Shown in pieces: positions 34,070 to 44,046 of a stretch of 64,000 nucleotides of DNA. The notes under the pieces are model-generated. The model was not told the DNA's origin, did no database searches, and worked only from the letters and a program-made list of their open reading frames with translations. How positions within the stretch are numbered: position 1 is the stretch's first letter; each line of letters opens with the position of its first letter. Location of the stretch: positions 62,001 through 126,000 of the forward strand of contig JAHFRU010000002.1 of NCBI GenBank assembly GCA_023266115.1. The letters are read 5' to 3'. The stretch is from Gammaproteobacteria bacterium (GTDB lineage Bacteria > Pseudomonadota > Gammaproteobacteria > VBWC01). Position numbers and translations under genes: made by a program.

Positions 34070-34765
34070 ATGGCAGCCACAGTTTTGATTGTCGAGGACG
34101 AGTCGGCCATCTGTGAGATGGTCAGTTTCGCATTGTCCCGGTCTGGCTATGACTGCCATGTGGCGATGGACGTGGAACAGGCCCGTCGGATTATTATGCA
34201 GCAGCGTCCTGATCTGATTTTGTTGGACTGGATGTTGCCGGGCGAAACCGGTCTGCAGTTCGCGCGGCGACTGAAACAAGACCGCTATACGCGGGAAATC
34301 CCGATTATTATGCTGACTGCCCGGGGTGAGGAGGGTGATAAGGTCAGCGGACTGGAGGCCGGAGCGGATGATTACATCGCCAAGCCGTTCTCGCCGAAGG
34401 AACTGATGGCGCGTATTAAGGCCGTGTTGCGCCGAGTCGCGCCCCATGCAGCCAACGAGATCGTTCAGGTGGGCGCTCTGCTGCTGGACCCTGGAACTCA
34501 TCGTGTTATCGCGGATGCCAAAGAATTGCGGGTGGGGCCGACCGAGTTCCGGCTGTTGAATTTCCTGATGACGCATCCTGAGCATGTGTTCAGCCGGGCG
34601 CAGCTACTCGATAATGTCTGGGGAACCGGTGTATATATCGACGAGCGCACCGTCGACGTCCACATCCGCCGCCTCAGGGAGTCACTGATGCCTGCGAAGT
34701 GTGAGGAAATGATTCAGACGGTGCGCGGCGTAGGTTACCGCTTTTCAACGCAGGATCCGTCTTGA
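34070..34765 (+). CDS. phoB: Phosphate regulon response regulator PhoB
   Basis: OmpR-class regulator, 231 residues. The receiver domain shows the acidic pocket (VEDES), the phosphorylation site in LILLDWMLPGETG (about Asp54), and LTARGEEGDK and DDYIAKPFSPKEL with the conserved lysine. The C-terminal winged helix has RVGPTEFRLLNFLMTHPEHV. It is assigned to PhoB rather than another OmpR member by sequence similarity and by phoR and pst genes downstream. A GGGGG stretch precedes the ATG. The stop overlaps the phoR start (TTGA). Confidence 0.97.
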   Translation: MAATVLIVEDESAICEMVSFALSRSGYDCHVAMDVEQARRIIMQQRPDLILLDWMLPGETGLQFARRLKQDRYTREIPIIMLTARGEEGDKVSGLEAGADDYIAKPFSPKELMARIKAVLRRVAPHAANEIVQVGALLLDPGTHRVIADAKELRVGPTEFRLLNFLMTHPEHVFSRAQLLDNVWGTGVYIDERTVDVHIRRLRESLMPAKCEEMIQTVRGVGYRFSTQDPS

Positions 34766-36087
34766 CCAGCGGCTGGACGACCGAAGTACGCCGCTTTGCG
34801 GTCGTTGTTGCGATAGCTCTGCTGGCGGGATTGATCACAGGACGGTGGGGTCTGTCGCTGGCGCTCGCGGCGGGCGTCGCTCTTGGCTGGCTGCTTTATA
34901 ACCTGGTGCGCCTGACGTCGTGGCTCGGCCGTCGTGATAAATCCTTGCCGCCGGTGTCATCCGGTGTCTGGGGCGAGGTTTTCGACAACATCTACCGTCT
35001 CCAGCGGCGTGACCGGCAGCGCAAGCGGCGCCTTTCACGGATGCTCGGCCAGTTTCAGCAGTCCGCCGCTGCGATGCCGGACGCGTCGGTGGTGCTGGGA
35101 TCCTCCGGCGAGATCCAGTGGTTTAACGAGGCGGCGCGGAATCTGCTCGGCATACGCTCGAAGGATGTCGGTCAGCGTATCGCGAACCTGGTGCGGTTCC
35201 CCGCATTTCAGGCGTTCGTGGCCGATGACAGGGAAGGGGTAATTGAATTGCAGTCCCCCGTTGATGCGAGTATTGCGCTGCACTGTCAGATCGTTCGTTA
35301 TGGCGACGAGCAGAGGTTGCTGATCGCCCGCGATGTTTCGTTGCTGCATCGCCTTGAACAGATACGTACCGACTTTGTCGCCAACGTATCCCATGAAATG
35401 CGCACCCCGTTGACGGTGCTGCATGGGTATCTCGAGACATTGACGGCCAGCGCGGCCGACACGCCTGCGGCATGGCGCCGGCCGCTGGAGCGCATGTACG
35501 AGCAGTCGCTGCGCATGCAGACGCTGGTCAATGATCTGCTGATTCTGACACGGCTTGAGACCGAGGGTCGCGGCGATCATGCGATGCCGGTCGCGGTCCC
35601 GGAAATGCTGTCCCGGATCCACATGGATGCCGTGGCGCTGAGTGGCGAGCGCGAGCACCGATTCAAACTCGACATCGACGCGAGTCTTTGGGTGAATGGC
35701 AGTCCGAACGAGCTGCAAAGCGCTTTCTCGAATATCGTATTCAATGCAATCCAGTACACTCCGGAACGCGGCGAGGTTGCGATTCGATGGTACTCGAATG
35801 TGGCCGGCGCGCATCTTGAGGTCGTCGACGATGGTATCGGCATTCCCGAACATCATATCCCGCGTCTTACCGAGCGGTTTTATCGTGTGGATATCGCGCG
35901 ATCCAGACGTACCGGTGGCACCGGCCTCGGTCTGGCCATTGTCAAGCACGTGTTGCAGCGACATGGCGGTGAGCTTGAGATCAGGAGCAGCGAGGGAAAC
36001 GGTAGCACGTTCATCTGTCATTTTCCGCCAGATGCGGTAGTCAATCGCGACGCGGGGCAGACGACCCAGGCGGGGCAGCGCCCATGA
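34762..36087 (+). CDS. phoR: Phosphate regulon sensor kinase PhoR
   Basis: Membrane histidine kinase that phosphorylates PhoB when phosphate is scarce. It has 441 residues. Two membrane segments (about residues 10-50), a PAS domain (AAMPDASVVLGSSGEIQWFN), the dimerisation/phosphoacceptor helix with the H-box FVANVSHEMRTPLTV, and the catalytic domain with NAIQYTPERG (N-box) and GTGLGLAIVKHVL (G2). No periplasmic loop of any size is seen, as expected of PhoR, which senses through PstSCAB-PhoU. The start is TTG, overlapping the phoB stop; no better start is near. Confidence 0.97.
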   Translation: MTSGWTTEVRRFAVVVAIALLAGLITGRWGLSLALAAGVALGWLLYNLVRLTSWLGRRDKSLPPVSSGVWGEVFDNIYRLQRRDRQRKRRLSRMLGQFQQSAAAMPDASVVLGSSGEIQWFNEAARNLLGIRSKDVGQRIANLVRFPAFQAFVADDREGVIELQSPVDASIALHCQIVRYGDEQRLLIARDVSLLHRLEQIRTDFVANVSHEMRTPLTVLHGYLETLTASAADTPAAWRRPLERMYEQSLRMQTLVNDLLILTRLETEGRGDHAMPVAVPEMLSRIHMDAVALSGEREHRFKLDIDASLWVNGSPNELQSAFSNIVFNAIQYTPERGEVAIRWYSNVAGAHLEVVDDGIGIPEHHIPRLTERFYRVDIARSRRTGGTGLGLAIVKHVLQRHGGELEIRSSEGNGSTFICHFPPDAVVNRDAGQTTQAGQRP

Positions 36088-36121: not shown

Positions 36122-36167
36122 CGTCACGACGCTGTCATCATATTGTCATTTCTCCGCTACATATTAT
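36122..36167 (+). promoter_or_regulatory. Pho box and -10 of pstS
   Basis: Three tandem eleven-base units: CGTCACGACGC (36122-36132), TGTCATCATAT (36133-36143) and TGTCATTTCTC (36144-36154). The best 18-base box is 36132-36149. A -10 candidate TATTAT lies at 36162-36167. It sits in the 133-base gap between phoR and pstS, indicating direct PhoB control of pstS and possibly the porin after it. Confidence 0.8.
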
Positions 36168-36220: not shown

Positions 36221-37195
36221 ATGTTGATACAGACAATAAGAGGAATGCTGGTCGTTTTTGCGGTCGGGATGCTACCGGCGTCGGTGCTGGCCACGGATTC
36301 GTCGGGCACGGGTTTGGCTGAATACAGCCCGGTCAGCGGTGTGTCCGGCAACCTGTCCAGCGTTGGTTCGGATACGCTCGCCAACCTGATGACGTTATGG
36401 GCCGAGGAATTCAAGCGTCTTTATCCCAATGTTAATGTCCAGATTCAGGCGGCCGGGTCGTCGACTGCGCCGCCGGCATTGACCGAGGGAACGGCCAGTC
36501 TTGGTCCAATGAGCCGCCAGATGAAAGACAATGAAATCGAGGCGTTTGAAAAGAAGTTCGGTTACAAACCGACCGCGATCCGCGTCGCCATCGATGCGCT
36601 GTCAATCTTTGTGCACAAGGATAATCCGATCAAGGGCTTGACGATACCGCAGGTGGATGCGGTGTTTTCGTCGACCCGTAAGTGCGGTGCGGAAGCCGAC
36701 GCGCGTAACTGGGGTGACGTTGGTCTGACCGGCGCCTGGGCGAGTCGCAGCATTCAGATGTATGGCCGTAACTCGGTGTCTGGCACCTACGGTTACTTCA
36801 AGGACGAAGCGCTGTGCAAGGGAGACTTCAAGAACACGGTCAACGAACAGCCCGGTTCCGCTTCGGTGGTCCAGTCCGTGTCGGCGTCGCTGAACGGTAT
36901 TGGTTACTCGGGGATCGGCTACAGAACTTCCGGCGTCAGGGCGATACCGCTGGCCAAAAAGGCCGGGGAGCCTTATGTCGAGGCGACGCCGGAGAACGCG
37001 ATCAAGGGCGCCTATCCGTTGTCGAGATTTCTGTATGTCTATGTCAACAAGCACCCGAACAAGCCGCTGCCGCCGCTGGAGCGCGAGTTTCTCCGGATGG
37101 TGATGTCGAAGGCCGGCCAGCAGGTTGTTGTCAAGGATGGGTATATTCCGTTACCGGCCAAGGTGGCGGGTGTCGAGTCAGGCAAGCTGAATTGA
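36221..37195 (+). CDS. pstS: Phosphate ABC transporter, periplasmic binding protein
   Basis: Binds phosphate in the periplasm and hands it to PstCA. It has 324 residues, with a signal peptide (cleavage about after VLATD region, residue 25). The phosphate-binding patterns are [12 protein letters not shown] near the mature N-terminus, [11 protein letters not shown], and [13 protein letters not shown]. It resembles the PstS/SphX branch. It is preceded by a Pho box. The porin gene begins 68 bases later with no terminator between, so the two may be co-transcribed. Confidence 0.95.
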
Positions 37196-37263: not shown

Positions 37264-38304
37264 ATGAAGTCTTGCAGGAGTGTTATTGCAGTAGCTGTCA
37301 CCGCGTTGCTCGCGGCACCGGTGATCGCCCAGGCCGAGGCCGAAGTTTACGGCAACGTGCGCGTATCCGCCGGCATAGTCAGCGATGACAACCCGGGCGC
37401 GGCCGCCGAGGACAGCAAGTTCAGCGTGACCAGTCACGCGTCACGGCTGGGGTTCAAGGGCTCTGACGATCTTGGCGATGGCCTGAGCGCGATCTGGCAG
37501 ATCGAGAGCCAGGTCGACTTCGACGACAGTAGCGGCGGTTTGTTTGACGGCATGCGCAATACCTTCGTCGGTCTGAAGGGCGACTTCGGTAAAGTGATCG
37601 CCGGTCGGCATGATACGCCTTACAAACTGGCTGCCAAGGACGCCGATATCTTTGTCGATTCACACGCCGACTATACGGGCGCCGTGCTGTCCAAGACACA
37701 TGACACACGGTTTGACAACCTGGTTGCCTATTTTTCCCCGACATGGTCCGGTTTGAATTTTATCGTTGGTGTGTCGGGCGACACGGCGAATGATGATCTT
37801 CCGGATGCTGCCAATACCGACAAGAAGGATGCCGCAAGCGGTGAGGTCACCTATGAAATCGGACCGGTTTCAGCGAGCATCGCTGCACAGAAAATCAGTA
37901 ATGGTACCGGTAATCCTGACAAGAAGGCCGCCAAGGCAGGCGTCATCTACAGGCTGGATAATGTCACCCGCTTTGCGTTTGTCTATGAAAACGCCAAGGA
38001 AGGTGCGCCACTGGATCAGAACGCCCTCTACCTGAGTGCCGCGCATGACTTCGGCGGCATGACATTGAAGGGTGCGCTCGGGCAGAAGGGCGAGACGGCG
38101 AGCGGCGCGAACGACGGCAGCGATTTTGCGGCGCTGGGTCTGTACAAGACCATGTCCAAGACGACCGAGCTTTATGCGCTATACACACAGACCGCGAATG
38201 ACACGGGAGGTACGAACGGGCTGGCCGAAGTGAGTCCAGGATTCGCCGACAAGACCACCAACGCGCTGGTGGTGGGGATCAACCTCAACTTCTCGTCGAA
38301 GTAG
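37264..38304 (+). CDS. Gram-negative general-type porin
   Basis: 346-residue outer-membrane beta-barrel of the Porin_4/OmpC-like class. A Sec signal peptide ends at VIAQAEA (about residue 25); the mature start EVYGNVRVSAGI and the block SRLGFKGSDDLGDGLSAIWQ are the diagnostic neisserial/burkholderial-type porin pattern. The C-terminus is VVGINLNFSSK, one residue past a clean aromatic end. Its position between pstS and pstC suggests a role in phosphate entry, as PhoE or OprP serve elsewhere, but this is inferred from context; the sequence is not OprP-like. The CAGGGGGAAACGAG before ATG 37264 supplies a ribosome site. Confidence 0.9.
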   Translation: MKSCRSVIAVAVTALLAAPVIAQAEAEVYGNVRVSAGIVSDDNPGAAAEDSKFSVTSHASRLGFKGSDDLGDGLSAIWQIESQVDFDDSSGGLFDGMRNTFVGLKGDFGKVIAGRHDTPYKLAAKDADIFVDSHADYTGAVLSKTHDTRFDNLVAYFSPTWSGLNFIVGVSGDTANDDLPDAANTDKKDAASGEVTYEIGPVSASIAAQKISNGTGNPDKKAAKAGVIYRLDNVTRFAFVYENAKEGAPLDQNALYLSAAHDFGGMTLKGALGQKGETASGANDGSDFAALGLYKTMSKTTELYALYTQTANDTGGTNGLAEVSPGFADKTTNALVVGINLNFSSK

Positions 38305-38341: not shown

Positions 38342-38364
38342 AACGGGGCCGAAAGGCCCCGTTC
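38342..38364 (+). terminator. Stem-loop after the porin gene
   Basis: AACGGGGCC-GAAA-GGCCCCGTT forms a nine-base perfect stem with a GNRA loop, but no T-run follows, so it may stabilise the pstS-porin mRNA or act as a weak or Rho-aided terminator. A second short stem (CCCCGG/CCGGGG) lies just before it, after the porin stop. Confidence 0.55.
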
Positions 38365-38392: not shown

Positions 38393-38426
38393 GTGTCATC
38401 GTATTGTAATAATCGACCCCTATCCT
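38393..38426 (+). promoter_or_regulatory. Pho box and -10 of pstC
   Basis: GTGTCATCGTATTGTAAT (38393-38410) is a Pho box; exactly ten bases later is the -10 candidate TATCCT (38421-38426), the phoA-type spacing also seen at phoB. The predicted transcription start (38433-38434) coincides with the A of the pstC ATG at 38434, so the transcript would have essentially no 5' leader. Confidence 0.72.
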
Positions 38427-38433
38427 GCGCGCC

Positions 38434-40716
38434 ATGCCGAACCGCCCCGCAAGCGCCCGTCCCGTGTCTGCCCCAGGTCGGCGTAAGGGCGCGGCGCTAT
38501 GGCGCTGGCGCAATGCCAAGGACGTCTCGGCGCGCCACGCGATGCGGTTGGGCGGCATCAGTGTCATCGTCGCGATACTGCTGATCTTTTTCTATCTGCT
38601 CTATGTGGTGTTTCCGCTGTTCGTGCCCGCAAGCATCAAGCGGGCGGGCGGGTATGCGGTTCCGGCGTCGGGCGCCGGCCGTACAGTGCACCTCGCCATC
38701 GAGGAACAGTCGCGCATTGCCGTGCGTATTACGGATAGTGGCCGTGCGGTTTTTTTTGACGCGAGCAACGGGAACGTGATCAGCGATGTCGCGTTGCCGG
38801 TGCCCGGCGGCGTCAGGATAACCAGTTTTGCCGCCGGCGACCCGGCGGGACGACTCTTTGCGTTCGGTCTCAGTGACGGCACGGCGCTCGTTGCCCGGCA
38901 CGACTATCGCACGGTTTATGCGGATACCGGCTCGACGATACTCCCCAACATCGATTATCCGCTCGGTGATAAACCGGTCGTCGTTGATGACCGCCGCAGG
39001 GCATTGGTGCAACTGGCGATAGAGGAGTCGGGCGACGAAACGACAATCGCCGCTGCCACCGGCGACAACGACGTCTTATTGAACCACGTTAGCCGGGAGA
39101 AATCGTTCCTGGACGAGGATGAGGCGACGATCAAGCGTACCCGCGCGAGCGTTTCTGTCGAGCAAATGAAGATCCGGGCACTGCTGCTTACCGAAGAACA
39201 GAATACGCTGTACGTCGTTGGCGAGAAGGGCGGGGTCGCGTATTTCGATATTCGGGACAAGCAGCTACCGCAACTGTTGCAACGGATTAACGTTACGGAG
39301 GAATCGGCCCGGACCACGTCGGTCAGCATGCTCGCGGGAGGCATCTCGTTGTTGATCGGCGATTCATCGGGCAGATTGACCCAATGGTTTCCGGTGCGTG
39401 ACGAACGTAACAGCCGTGCGCTGACATTTATTCGCGAATTCCATGATCAACGCTCGCTGATCAGTGCGATCGCGGCGGAGCACGGGCGCAAGGGATTCAT
39501 CGCCGCCGACCAGTCCGGGCGCATCGGTCTTTATCACGCCACGGCACATCGTACGCTGTTGGTGGAAAAGATCGGCGAGCAGGCGATCGAAACGCTGGCC
39601 ATGGCGCCGCGCGGGAATGCCTTGTTGGCGGAGGATCAGGCAGGGCAGATATTGTTCTGGCGCATACACAACGAGCATCCCGAGGCTTCGTGGTCTGCGT
39701 TATGGCAGAAAGTCTGGTACGAGAGTTATGACAAGCCGGATTATATCTGGCAGTCGTCGTCCGCCAGCAATGACTTCGAGCCGAAGTTCAGCCTGACGCC
39801 ATTGACGTTTGGCACGATCAAGGCGGCCTTCTACGCGATGATATTCGCGATCCCGCTTGCGCTGCTCGGTGCGATCTATACAGCCTACTTCATGGCGCCG
39901 AGAATGCGGCAGTACGTCAAGCCCGGCATCGAGATCATGGAAGCCTTGCCGACGGTGATTCTGGGTTTTCTGGCGGGATTGTGGCTGGCGCCGTTTATCG
40001 AAGCGCATTTGCCGGGGTTTTTTCTGGCACTGATCGCGTTGCCGACCGGCGTACTGGTGTTCGCGTATTGCTGGGGCCGTTTGCCGCCGGGAATCGCGAG
40101 CTGGATACCGGACGGATGGCACGCCGCCGGGCTGATACCGGTGCTGTGCGCCGTTGCCTGGCTGTCGTTCTTCAGCGGCGGGCCGGTAATCGAACAGGCG
40201 TTGTTCGGCGGCGACCTGCACGGCTGGTTGACCGCGCGCGGCATCGGCTTCGATCAGCGCAACTCCCTCGTTGTCGGTCTGGCCATGGGCTTTGCGGTGG
40301 TCCCGATGATGTTCTCGATCGCTGAGGATGCCGTATTCAGCGTTCCCGGGCATCTGACGCGTGGCTCACTGGCCCTCGGGGCGACGCCGTGGCAGACGCT
40401 GGTGCGGGTCGTTCTGTTGACGGCCAGCCCGGGAATTTTCTCGGCGATCATGATCGGGCTCGGCCGGGCGGTAGGCGAGACAATGATCGTATTGATGGCT
40501 ACCGGTAATACGCCGGTCATGGATATGTCTTTCTTTGCCGGCATGCGCACCTTGTCGGCCAATATCGCGGTTGAGATGCCCGAGGCGGAGGTCAGCAGCA
40601 CGCATTACCGGATCCTGTTTCTGGCGGCCCTGGTGCTGTTTATGTTTACGTTTCTTGTCAATACGCTGGCGGAAATCGTTCGTCAGCGCTTGCGCAAGAA
40701 GTACAGCAGTCTTTAG
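38434..40716 (+). CDS. pstC: Phosphate ABC transporter permease PstC, large form
   Basis: Inner-membrane channel subunit. At 760 residues it is more than twice the E. coli PstC length. Residues about 40-64 form a first membrane helix (GGISVIVAILLIFFYLLYVV). Residues about 70-445 form a large domain of repeated short beta segments (GNVISDVALPVPGG, FAFGLSDGTALVARHD, IGLYHATAHRTLLVEK) that resembles a beta-propeller and would be periplasmic. The permease core starts about residue 455 and contains the ABC coupling region RGSLALGATPWQTLVRVVL. No Shine-Dalgarno precedes the ATG, consistent with a leaderless message; ATG 38540 is an alternative start. pstA follows 10 bases after the stop. Confidence 0.92.
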   Translation: MPNRPASARPVSAPGRRKGAALWRWRNAKDVSARHAMRLGGISVIVAILLIFFYLLYVVFPLFVPASIKRAGGYAVPASGAGRTVHLAIEEQSRIAVRITDSGRAVFFDASNGNVISDVALPVPGGVRITSFAAGDPAGRLFAFGLSDGTALVARHDYRTVYADTGSTILPNIDYPLGDKPVVVDDRRRALVQLAIEESGDETTIAAATGDNDVLLNHVSREKSFLDEDEATIKRTRASVSVEQMKIRALLLTEEQNTLYVVGEKGGVAYFDIRDKQLPQLLQRINVTEESARTTSVSMLAGGISLLIGDSSGRLTQWFPVRDERNSRALTFIREFHDQRSLISAIAAEHGRKGFIAADQSGRIGLYHATAHRTLLVEKIGEQAIETLAMAPRGNALLAEDQAGQILFWRIHNEHPEASWSALWQKVWYESYDKPDYIWQSSSASNDFEPKFSLTPLTFGTIKAAFYAMIFAIPLALLGAIYTAYFMAPRMRQYVKPGIEIMEALPTVILGFLAGLWLAPFIEAHLPGFFLALIALPTGVLVFAYCWGRLPPGIASWIPDGWHAAGLIPVLCAVAWLSFFSGGPVIEQALFGGDLHGWLTARGIGFDQRNSLVVGLAMGFAVVPMMFSIAEDAVFSVPGHLTRGSLALGATPWQTLVRVVLLTASPGIFSAIMIGLGRAVGETMIVLMATGNTPVMDMSFFAGMRTLSANIAVEMPEAEVSSTHYRILFLAALVLFMFTFLVNTLAEIVRQRLRKKYSSL

Positions 40717-40726
40717 GAGCATCACG

Positions 40727-42379
40727 ATGCGTCAGTGGTTTCGTAGCGGTACTCCATGGATATGGCTGACGGCGGCGGCGGTCAGCGCGAGCCTGATCAT
40801 GGTCATCGGCCTGGTGTCGCTGATTGCGATTCGCGGTCTCGGCTACTTCTGGCCGAATGAAGTGCTGGATATCCAGTATCGCAATGCGGACCGCCACACT
40901 GTCCGCATCATTGGTGAACGGTATGACGATGAGCGGGTTTCCGCCAGCCGTCTTCGTGAGTCCGGTGTTGATCTGACGACGAATGCCGACCAGATTGGAC
41001 GCTACCTGATCAAGACCGGCAACCGGGATGTCGGCGGGCTGGATTTTCGCTGGCTGATCGAGCCGGACATCGCCACGATTGAGCGGCCGGGCGATGTCGC
41101 GGTGATCGAACGGAGAGAGTGGGGGAATCTGTACGGTTTTTTGATAGCGCTCAAGCAGGGTGGTCAGGTGGTGGCGGAAGGCGACCAGGCGTGGCCGGCG
41201 CTGGCGCAGCGTCTCGATCGTGCCCGTGATCTGTTCGCACAAATACGCGCGGTCCAGAAAGATGCAATGGGCGAGGTCAATTACGGTCTGGAGAAGCTCC
41301 GGTTGCGGGAGCGGTTGCAGGAAATCCGCGGCGAAAACGACCCGGAGCGACGACTCGAAATCGTCGCGCAACGCCAGGAGTTAGAGGCACGCTACGCGGA
41401 CCTTGAACAGCGACTGGTTGGGCTGTCTGAGGCCATCGCCCGCGACAGTATCGTCGTACAGACCGCGGACGGCGCAATCGTCGAAGTGCCGCTGGCAAAG
41501 ACCGTCAGGATTTTCCGGCCGAACAGTATGGGGCTGACCGGAAAAATCGCTCACTACCTGGAGAAGCTCTCGGAGTTTGTCAGTGACGACCCGCGCGAGG
41601 CGAATACCGAGGGCGGCATCTTTCCGGCTATTTTTGGCACGGTATTGATGGTCATCATCATGTCGGTGATTGTGACGCCTTTCGGCGTGATAGCCGCCGT
41701 GTACTTGAGGGAGTATGCCCGGCAGGGTGTGGTGACCCGTCTGGTTCGCATCGCTGTCAACAATCTTGCCGGCGTACCAGCGATTGTTTACGGCGTATTC
41801 GGTCTGGGTTTTTTCGTCTATTTCGTCGGTGGTGGCATCGACCAGTGGATGTTTCCCGAGTCATTGCCGGCACCGACGTTCGGTACGCCGGGCATACTGT
41901 GGGCGTCGTTGACACTGGCAATCCTGACGCTGCCAGTGGTCATTGTCGCCACCGAGGAAGGCTTGGCGCGTATCCCGCGTTCGATAAGAGAGGGTAGCCT
42001 CGCGCTCGGTGCAACCAAGGCCGAGACGTTGTGGCGTACGGTGCTGCCGATGGCGAGTCCGGCGATGATGACCGGTCTGATACTCGCGGTTGCCCGCGCC
42101 GCAGGCGAGGTCGCGCCGTTGATGCTGGTCGGCGTTGTCAAACTGGCGCCGTCAATGCCGCTTGACGGAGACTTTCCGTTTCTGCATCTCGATCGAAAGT
42201 TCATGCATCTCGGGTTTCATATCTATGATGTCGGATTTCAAAGTCCGAATGTGGAAGCGGCCCGGCCGCTGGTATATGCCACCGCGCTGTTGCTGGTATT
42301 GGTGATTCTGGTACTCAATCTGGCGGCAATCGCGATACGAAACCGTCTGCGCGAAAAATACCGCTCCCTCGAAAGCTAG
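40727..42379 (+). CDS. pstA: Phosphate ABC transporter permease PstA, large form
   Basis: Second channel subunit, 550 residues against about 300 in E. coli. I chose ATG 40727 (MRQWFRSGTPWIW) with TTAGGAG as ribosome site. After one membrane helix (about 12-40), residues about 45-290 form an extra domain that includes a charged coiled-coil (RERLQEIRGENDPERRLEIV, about 195-240). The permease core begins near residue 295 (GGIFPAIFGTVLMVIIMSVI) and carries the coupling motif REGSLALGATKAETLWRTVL. It pairs with the enlarged PstC. pstB follows after 12 bases. Confidence 0.93.
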   Translation: MRQWFRSGTPWIWLTAAAVSASLIMVIGLVSLIAIRGLGYFWPNEVLDIQYRNADRHTVRIIGERYDDERVSASRLRESGVDLTTNADQIGRYLIKTGNRDVGGLDFRWLIEPDIATIERPGDVAVIERREWGNLYGFLIALKQGGQVVAEGDQAWPALAQRLDRARDLFAQIRAVQKDAMGEVNYGLEKLRLRERLQEIRGENDPERRLEIVAQRQELEARYADLEQRLVGLSEAIARDSIVVQTADGAIVEVPLAKTVRIFRPNSMGLTGKIAHYLEKLSEFVSDDPREANTEGGIFPAIFGTVLMVIIMSVIVTPFGVIAAVYLREYARQGVVTRLVRIAVNNLAGVPAIVYGVFGLGFFVYFVGGGIDQWMFPESLPAPTFGTPGILWASLTLAILTLPVVIVATEEGLARIPRSIREGSLALGATKAETLWRTVLPMASPAMMTGLILAVARAAGEVAPLMLVGVVKLAPSMPLDGDFPFLHLDRKFMHLGFHIYDVGFQSPNVEAARPLVYATALLLVLVILVLNLAAIAIRNRLREKYRSLES

Positions 42380-42391
42380 GAAACTCCCACT

Positions 42392-43249
42392 ATGCAGGAT
42401 ACTAACAACTTAAAAAATACGCCCCGACCGTTGACGCACGGTATCGATATCTCGGCCCTGGATTGTCACGACCGCATCGTGACACGTGGAGCCGAAGAGT
42501 CATGTATCCAGACGGAAACGCTTAATTTTTACTACGGCGCGAAGCAGGCGCTGAAGGATATCAACATTACGCTGCCGAAATATCGCGTCTCGGCCTTTAT
42601 TGGCCCCAGCGGTTGTGGTAAATCAACGCTGCTGCGCTGTTTCAATCGAATGAACGATCTGATTGATGACGTCCGTATAGACGGAACCATCTTGCTGGAC
42701 GGGACCGATATCCTGGCGCGGGACGTCAATGTCGCTGAGCTGCGGAGGCGAGTGGGCATGGTATTCCAGAAGCCCAACCCGTTTCCCAAGTCAATTTATG
42801 AGAATGTTGCGTATGGTTTACGCATTAACGGCGTCAATAAACGACGCTATCTGGATGAGGTGGTCGAAAAGGCCCTGCGTGATGCTGCATTATGGGATGA
42901 GGTGAAAGACCGGTTGAACGAAAGCGCGCTGTCTTTATCCGGCGGTCAGCAGCAACGGCTCGTCATCGCGCGGGCCATTGCGGTGGAGCCGGAAGTGCTG
43001 CTGCTCGATGAGCCGGCATCCGCGCTCGATCCGATTTCGACATTAAAGATTGAGGAGCTGGTTTATGAACTTAAATCGCGCTATACGATCGTTATAGTGA
43101 CGCACAATATGCAACAGGCGGCGCGGGTATCCGATTACACGGCGTTCATGTATATGGGCGAGATGATCGAGTTCGACAGTGCTGTCACCCTGTTCACGAA
43201 CCCGCGTGACAGAAGGACCGAGGATTATATTACCGGCCGTTACGGGTAG
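42392..43249 (+). CDS. pstB: Phosphate ABC transporter ATPase
   Basis: ATPase that powers PstCA. It has 285 residues. Walker [10 protein letters not shown], the signature [14 protein letters not shown], Walker [14 protein letters not shown], and H-loop [11 protein letters not shown] are all intact. An N-terminal extension of about 35 residues precedes the ABC fold. Its own Shine-Dalgarno (AGGAAA) lies by the pstA stop. phoU follows after 71 bases. Confidence 0.98.
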
Positions 43250-43320: not shown

Positions 43321-44046
43321 ATGCCACGTGCGGGATCGGGTGATCATATTTCCCATCGATACGATGAGGAACTGGAAGATATACGAAACCACGTGCTCAA
43401 GATGGGCGGGTTGGTCGAGCAACAGCTGGCCGATGCGATTATGGCTTCGGTGGAAGGCGATATAACGCTGGCGGAAAAAGTCGTGACCAGCGATTACAAG
43501 GTCAATGCGATGGAAGTCGCCATCGACGAAGAGTGCACGCGCATCATTGCCCGTCGCCAGCCGGCAGCCAGCGATTTGCGCCTGATCATCGCCATCATCA
43601 AAACCATCACCGACCTGGAACGTATTGGCGATGAGGCCGAGCGGGTGGGGCGCATGGTTGTTCAGCTGACACAGAATGAACGGACGAGCAAGGGCCAGGT
43701 CGAGATTCAGCACCTGGGTACCCACGTCCGGCAGATGTTACACGACGCACTGGACGCGTTCGCGCGTATGGATGCCGAGGCGGCGGTGCGTGTTGCACAG
43801 GAGGATATCAAGGTCGATCAGGAGTACGAGGGGATAATGCGACAGCTGATCATGTTCATGATGGAGGACCCGCGATCGATACCGTGGGTACTCGAAGTTA
43901 TCTGGTCCGCCCGGGCATTGGAGAGAATTGGCGACCGGGCATGCAATATCTGCGAATACGTCGTCTATCTGGCCAAGGGCAAGGACGTGCGGCATACCAG
44001 CCTGGAGCAGATGGAGAAGGAGGCGCGGTCCGAAAAGAATCGCTAG
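43321..44046 (+). CDS. phoU: Phosphate signalling protein PhoU
   Basis: Negative regulator that links PstSCAB transport state to PhoR. It has 241 residues of two similar three-helix bundles, each with the metal-binding pattern ([13 protein letters not shown] in the first and [14 protein letters not shown] in the second). I chose ATG 43321 because GAAGGAG lies just upstream; a TTG at 43306 would place that site inside the gene. It is the last gene of the pst operon and ends at a strong terminator. Confidence 0.97.

Follow-up and report, generated by a model that had tools for sequence, protein, structure and literature searches.

How is a phosphate-transporter gene expressed when its predicted promoter ends on the start codon itself? 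The question is raised by pstC in a 64,000-nucleotide stretch of gammaproteobacterial DNA (contig JAHFRU010000002.1, hereafter the window). In PhoB-dependent promoters, the Pho box replaces the −35 element. A preliminary description of the window had proposed that a promoter of this kind yields a leaderless pstC message, which might be an unusual control point. The locus was analysed base by base and compared with pstC loci across the class. We consider it highly probable (about 0.85) that pstC has its own PhoB-driven promoter ending on the start codon, that its mRNA is leaderless, and that this is an old arrangement kept in much of the class.

Organization of the phosphate locus

The plus strand of the window carries phoB-phoR-pstS-porin-pstC-pstA-pstB-phoU in this order, as assigned from open reading frames and from domain and NCBIfam profile matches. 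The cognate regulators PhoB and PhoR are both encoded at 34070-36087, with NCBIfam profiles above cut-off. The features are as follows:

34070-34765, plus strand: phoB (TIGR02154, above cut-off)
34762-36087, plus strand: phoR (TIGR02966, above cut-off; TTG start)
36132-36149, plus strand: pstS Pho box CTGTCATCATATTGTCAT, about 71 nt upstream of the pstS ATG; pstS is leadered, with a Shine-Dalgarno (SD) sequence
36221-37195, plus strand: pstS, phosphate-binding protein (TIGR02136)
37264-38304, plus strand: porin gene between pstS and pstC (Porin_4)
38342-38363, plus strand: hairpin AACGGGGCC-GAAA-GGCCCCGTT between the porin gene and the Pho box; weak T-tail; kept in the nearest relative
38393-38410, plus strand: Pho box GTGTCATCGTATTGTAAT, two TGTMAY half-sites (sequence match)
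38411-38420, plus strand: 10-nt spacer AATCGACCCC between the Pho box and the −10 element; identical in the nearest relative
38421-38426, plus strand: −10 element TATCCT, exactly +10 from the Pho box (by sequence; TANNNT at +10 in relatives)
38427-38433, plus strand: 7-nt discriminator GCGCGCC, without SD (anti-SD energy +0.4)
38434-38436, plus strand: pstC start codon ATG, its A the predicted transcription start (from the nearest relative, the class loci and the blind search)
38434-40716, plus strand: pstC, long form, 760 aa, with a beta-propeller-like region ahead of the permease domain
40727-42379, plus strand: pstA (TIGR00974; start placed from its SD, −6.5)
42392-43249, plus strand: pstB ATPase (ABC_tran)
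43321-44046, plus strand: phoU (PhoU domain; ATG with a strong SD)

The pstC product scored 182.7 bits against NCBIfam TIGR02138 (cut-off 196.45), the match being split over two stretches in the long form. TIGR02138 is the best equivalog for this product, and the gene order is consistent with it. The region before the permease domain in the 760-aa protein matches eukaryotic beta-propeller models weakly. The porin gene has a strong SD and presumably belongs to the pstS unit.

Predicted promoter and start codon of pstC

The preliminary description had placed a Pho box ending at 38410, ten bases and then TATCCT ahead of pstC, and this was borne out exactly. The box consists of two direct half-sites spaced 11 nt, GTGTCAT and TTGTAAT with CGTA between them. 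The pstC ATG follows TATCCT after 7 nt, and its A lies 8 nt past the −10 element and is preceded by C. An A at this distance with a pyrimidine before it is a usual transcription start point. The sigma70 scanner called no promoter (−35/−10 pair) in the pstC start region, as is expected of promoters in which a Pho box substitutes for the −35 element.

The claim that no ribosome-binding site precedes the gene also held, the anti-SD duplex energy at the ATG being +0.4 kcal/mol; the neighbouring genes have −8.8 (phoB), −8.6 (pstS), −9.4 (porin) and −8.8 kcal/mol (phoU ATG). Scoring relied on standard motifs: TATAAT, the consensus of the Pho box and an anti-SD 9-mer. No ATG, GTG or TTG start is possible between the Pho box and ATG 38434 because of an in-frame TAA at 38410, and the same in-frame stop bars starts there in the nearest relative.

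That relative is a gammaproteobacterial MAG (VBWC01000003.1) whose PstC is 96% identical to that of the window. Positions 38394-38450 are unchanged between the two (0/57 changes, vs 10/88 just upstream and 8/89 just downstream). The sole change in the box, at 38393, gives the relative a perfect first half-site, CTGTCAT. Six of the eight changes in 38451-38539 are concentrated at 38451-38463, and the GTG at 38464 is retained.

Chance expectation was measured in the window's own genome (3,103,553 bases, or 3.10 Mb, in 46 contigs). With three mismatches or fewer from the consensus allowed, the Pho box alone occurs at 551 places vs 482 for the reversed control; by itself it is not unusual and is weak evidence. 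Only pstC matches the composite TGTMAY-N5-TGTMAY-N10-TANNNT exactly anywhere in the genome, and pstS is among the three places with one mismatch; at up to two mismatches there are 25 places vs 15 for the reversed pattern. What is distinctive is the combination of box, spacing, −10 element and ATG, together with its recurrence in relatives.

Recurrence of the geometry across the class

Of 369 genomes of the window's class, 118 encode the long PstC. Eight were dropped for want of an N-terminus or upstream DNA (G305, G009, G046, G139, G053, G246, G035 and G354), leaving 110 loci in 57 families with usable upstream DNA. A strict rule was applied, which required a box score of 11 or more, TANNNT at +10 from the box, and an ATG in the pstC frame at a distance of 21-26 nt from it. 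The comparison of pstC upstream regions that the preliminary description had suggested showed the geometry to recur, in 53 of the 110 loci and 30 of the 57 families; the other 57 loci fall outside the strict rule. Among named loci 19 of 80 satisfy it, including Methylobacter tundripaludum, Methylovulum psychrotolerans, M. miyakonense, Oceanospirillum multiglobuliferum and Dasania sp., and 61 fall outside, including betaproteobacterial loci, six Thioalkalivibrio and several Methylococcales.

Each component was also scored separately. Of the 110 loci, 74 have a Pho box of at least 12/14 within 200 nt (Markov null 0.5%); on the reverse strand, used as a control, such boxes occur in 8 of 110, which is above the Markov null. 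In 66 of the 74 loci with a strong box, TANNNT begins at +10, and any other single offset has it in at most 5. Where an ATG follows the box at 21-26 nt, it shares the pstC frame in 48 cases (47 loci) and is out of frame in 3; by family, among the 41 with a box, the counts are 28 and 3. This frame test is independent of the assumed start, since the frame was taken from the downstream protein match.

When 51 loci were classed as leaderless-type from box and ATG alone, the T, the A and the final T of the −10 element were each found in 50 of them. The −10 element had played no part in choosing these loci. Start codons at the equivalent spot are 48 ATG, 1 GTG and 1 TTG, in agreement with the AUG preference of leaderless messages (PMC3616915). 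In three loci (genomes G295, G052 and G190; L215, L212 and L223) the boxes overlap, at least three half-sites lie upstream of pstC, and the half-site pair that sets the −10 spacing differs.

In a search that ignored gene annotation, 340 genomes were scanned for the complete pattern, with its closing ATG 6 or 7 nt beyond the −10 element, and matches were assigned to pstC by position against the long-PstC list. Of 35 exact matches (21 and 14), 30 were pstC (19 and 11). The other five are Pho promoters or chance matches; their ATG either begins a reading frame of 6, 34, 13 or 12 codons or precedes in frame an SD-led pstS start. Among the one-mismatch matches that were classified, ppk1 follows a Pho box and −10 element at leaderless spacing in two genomes of family f113 (L290:2040 and L291), and phoB does so in one genome (G303, L292:1040).

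The pstS gene served as a control from the same loci. It lies upstream of pstC in 70 of 110; of the 65 usable cases, 47 have a box scoring 12 or more. Its box-to-start distances run from 10 to 153 nt, and none of the 47 falls at 21-26 nt. An SD of −4.5 or below precedes 60% of the 65 pstS starts, chosen by the rough rule of expected protein length, vs 4% of the 51 leaderless-type pstC starts. On the strength of these controls (reversed patterns, shuffles, out-of-frame ATGs and pstS), we reject chance as the source of the geometry.

Proposed mechanism and alternative explanations

The sequence evidence argues strongly for a leaderless pstC message. Phosphorylated PhoB on the box would take the role of the −35 element and position RNA polymerase on TATCCT, as at a sigma70 promoter, and transcription would begin on the A of ATG 38434 or up to about 3 nt away. 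Mapped PhoB boxes that overlap the −35 region in Sinorhizobium meliloti sit 22-25 nt upstream of the transcription start site (TSS) (PMC3616915). The box-to-ATG distance here is the same, which would put the 5' end on the AUG or no more than about 3 nt from it. If the mRNA is leaderless, translation must use recognition of the 5' AUG and not SD pairing. We infer PhoB binding, the exact 5' end and translation from the 5' AUG from this geometry, and induction under phosphate limitation is predicted.

An alternative is that the promoter is real and the ATG at +1 incidental, with translation from GTG 38464 or from an internal ATG on a leadered mRNA. The changes in the early codons of the close pair and the conservation of GTG 38464 in the nearest relative are in its favour. 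However, the GTG has no SD (+0.1). The internal ATG, which the preliminary description had put at 38540 and had considered as a start with its own ribosome site, actually lies at 38542 and scores only −1.7; translation from it is not favoured on this evidence, since a start there would delete a segment of about residues 24-34 common to most relatives. Across families the +1 ATG is locked to the pstC frame. An SD-led in-frame alternative start downstream, ahead of the conserved core, was found in none of the 51 leaderless-type loci, 31 of which have no alternative start of any kind. This makes downstream translation highly improbable. Expression of pstC mainly by read-through of the pstS-porin unit, with a box that only adds transcript or binds PhoB inertly, also appears improbable. 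It fits the operon-like order of pstS, porin and pstC on one strand and the hairpin at 38342-38363, which the terminator scanner did not call as a terminator in the window; moreover, many PhoB sites in E. coli are transcriptionally inert (PMC10294691). Those inert sites, however, are described there as intragenic and poorly conserved, while box, spacing and −10 element are here conserved jointly. Within 160 nt upstream of the box, 18 of 50 leaderless-type loci have a strong terminator-like hairpin vs 0 of 150 shuffles, and in these loci pstC therefore resembles an independent transcription unit. In Pseudomonas aeruginosa, PhoB binds a pstC promoter that contains a Pho box (PMC4971064).

Closer to the preferred reading, and a refinement of it more than a rival, is a very short leader (1-8 nt) or a mixture of 5' ends. 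With the −10 element fixed at +10 and the box-to-ATG distance ranging from 21 to 26 nt across leaderless-type loci, a fixed start point would leave some genomes with leaders of 0-4 nt. On the other side, the A of the window's ATG occupies the usual start position described above, and we regard this variant as unlikely. For the leaderless message itself, two benefits can be hypothesized. Because its AUG has no SD, PstC may be made solely from the PhoB-driven pstC message, and transcripts reading through from the leadered pstS unit would then yield none. Initiation at a 5' AUG may also continue when ribosomes and initiation factors are scarce in phosphate starvation. A stronger version, which we hold only tentatively and think doubtful, is a conserved device in which read-through mRNA would remain untranslated, 70S-type initiation at the 5' AUG would proceed while SD-led translation falls, and promoter and translation mode would have been selected together. 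Were this so, it would explain why pstC is foremost among the leaderless Pho genes of the class.

Relation to known systems

The predicted pstC promoter shares with PhoB-dependent promoters of the E. coli type and of S. meliloti two TGTMAY half-sites, the lack of a −35 element, a −10 element about 10 nt downstream and a box 22-25 nt from the TSS, which for pstC is a predicted one (PMC3616915). Those promoters as a rule feed SD leaders, as that of pstS does here, whereas the pstC promoter would end on the start codon. The P. aeruginosa pstC promoter, with its Pho box, was described by Nikata in 1996 and Jensen in 2006, as cited in PMC4971064; it is bound by PhoB, and the passages of PMC4971064 that treat it do not mention a leaderless transcript.

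Bacterial leaderless mRNAs, of which 171 were reported in S. meliloti (PMC3616915), have a 5' AUG, a −10 element directly before the start codon and no SD, as in the predicted pstC message (PMC3616915 and PMC3160421). Zheng (2011) found leaderless genes of gamma-Proteobacteria mainly in Xanthomonadales and Legionellales and proposed loss elsewhere (PMC3160421). In contrast, a single gene here keeps the leaderless signature in 30 of the 57 sampled families of the window's class. No report of a leaderless pstC was recognized in the open-access literature searched, and a TSS table elsewhere may already hold one.

Leaderless mRNAs in this class are usually regarded as scattered exceptions. A regulated gene with leaderless geometry over tens of families would provide a natural, inducible model for the purpose of leaderless translation, and lineages in which the same Pho promoter is followed by a leader and SD, such as Thioalkalivibrio, offer ready comparisons. 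The arrangement further suggests that PstC and PstS each have their supply governed by a promoter and a translation mode of their own.

History and exceptions

In a FastTree phylogeny of 109 PstC proteins, the leaderless label is confined to one part (37 of 71 rows) and is absent from the other (0 of 38), where betaproteobacteria, Thioalkalivibrio and family f128 are found. The label needs 18 changes on this tree vs a shuffled mean of 30.9, a count that is soft, given the weakly supported deep split and the long branches. Taken at face value, 18 changes mean that leaderlessness was gained or lost many times, or that loci were misscored. Some loci keep the Pho promoter with a leader, some of them with an SD, at box-to-ATG distances of 45-60 (for example G241, G128 and G222), and leaderlessness is therefore not essential to pstC. 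In the simpler but tentative history, pstC was leaderless first, and some lineages then lost the box or acquired a leader. The best reading of these sequences is that the leaderless pstC unit is probably old in the class, was retained in much of it, and was lost or acquired a leader in some lineages.

Several Methylococcales have an eroded Pho box and yet no SD, and two of these loci (L088 and L090) have a good −10 element six bases before the ATG, as if leaderlessness outlasts the Pho box.
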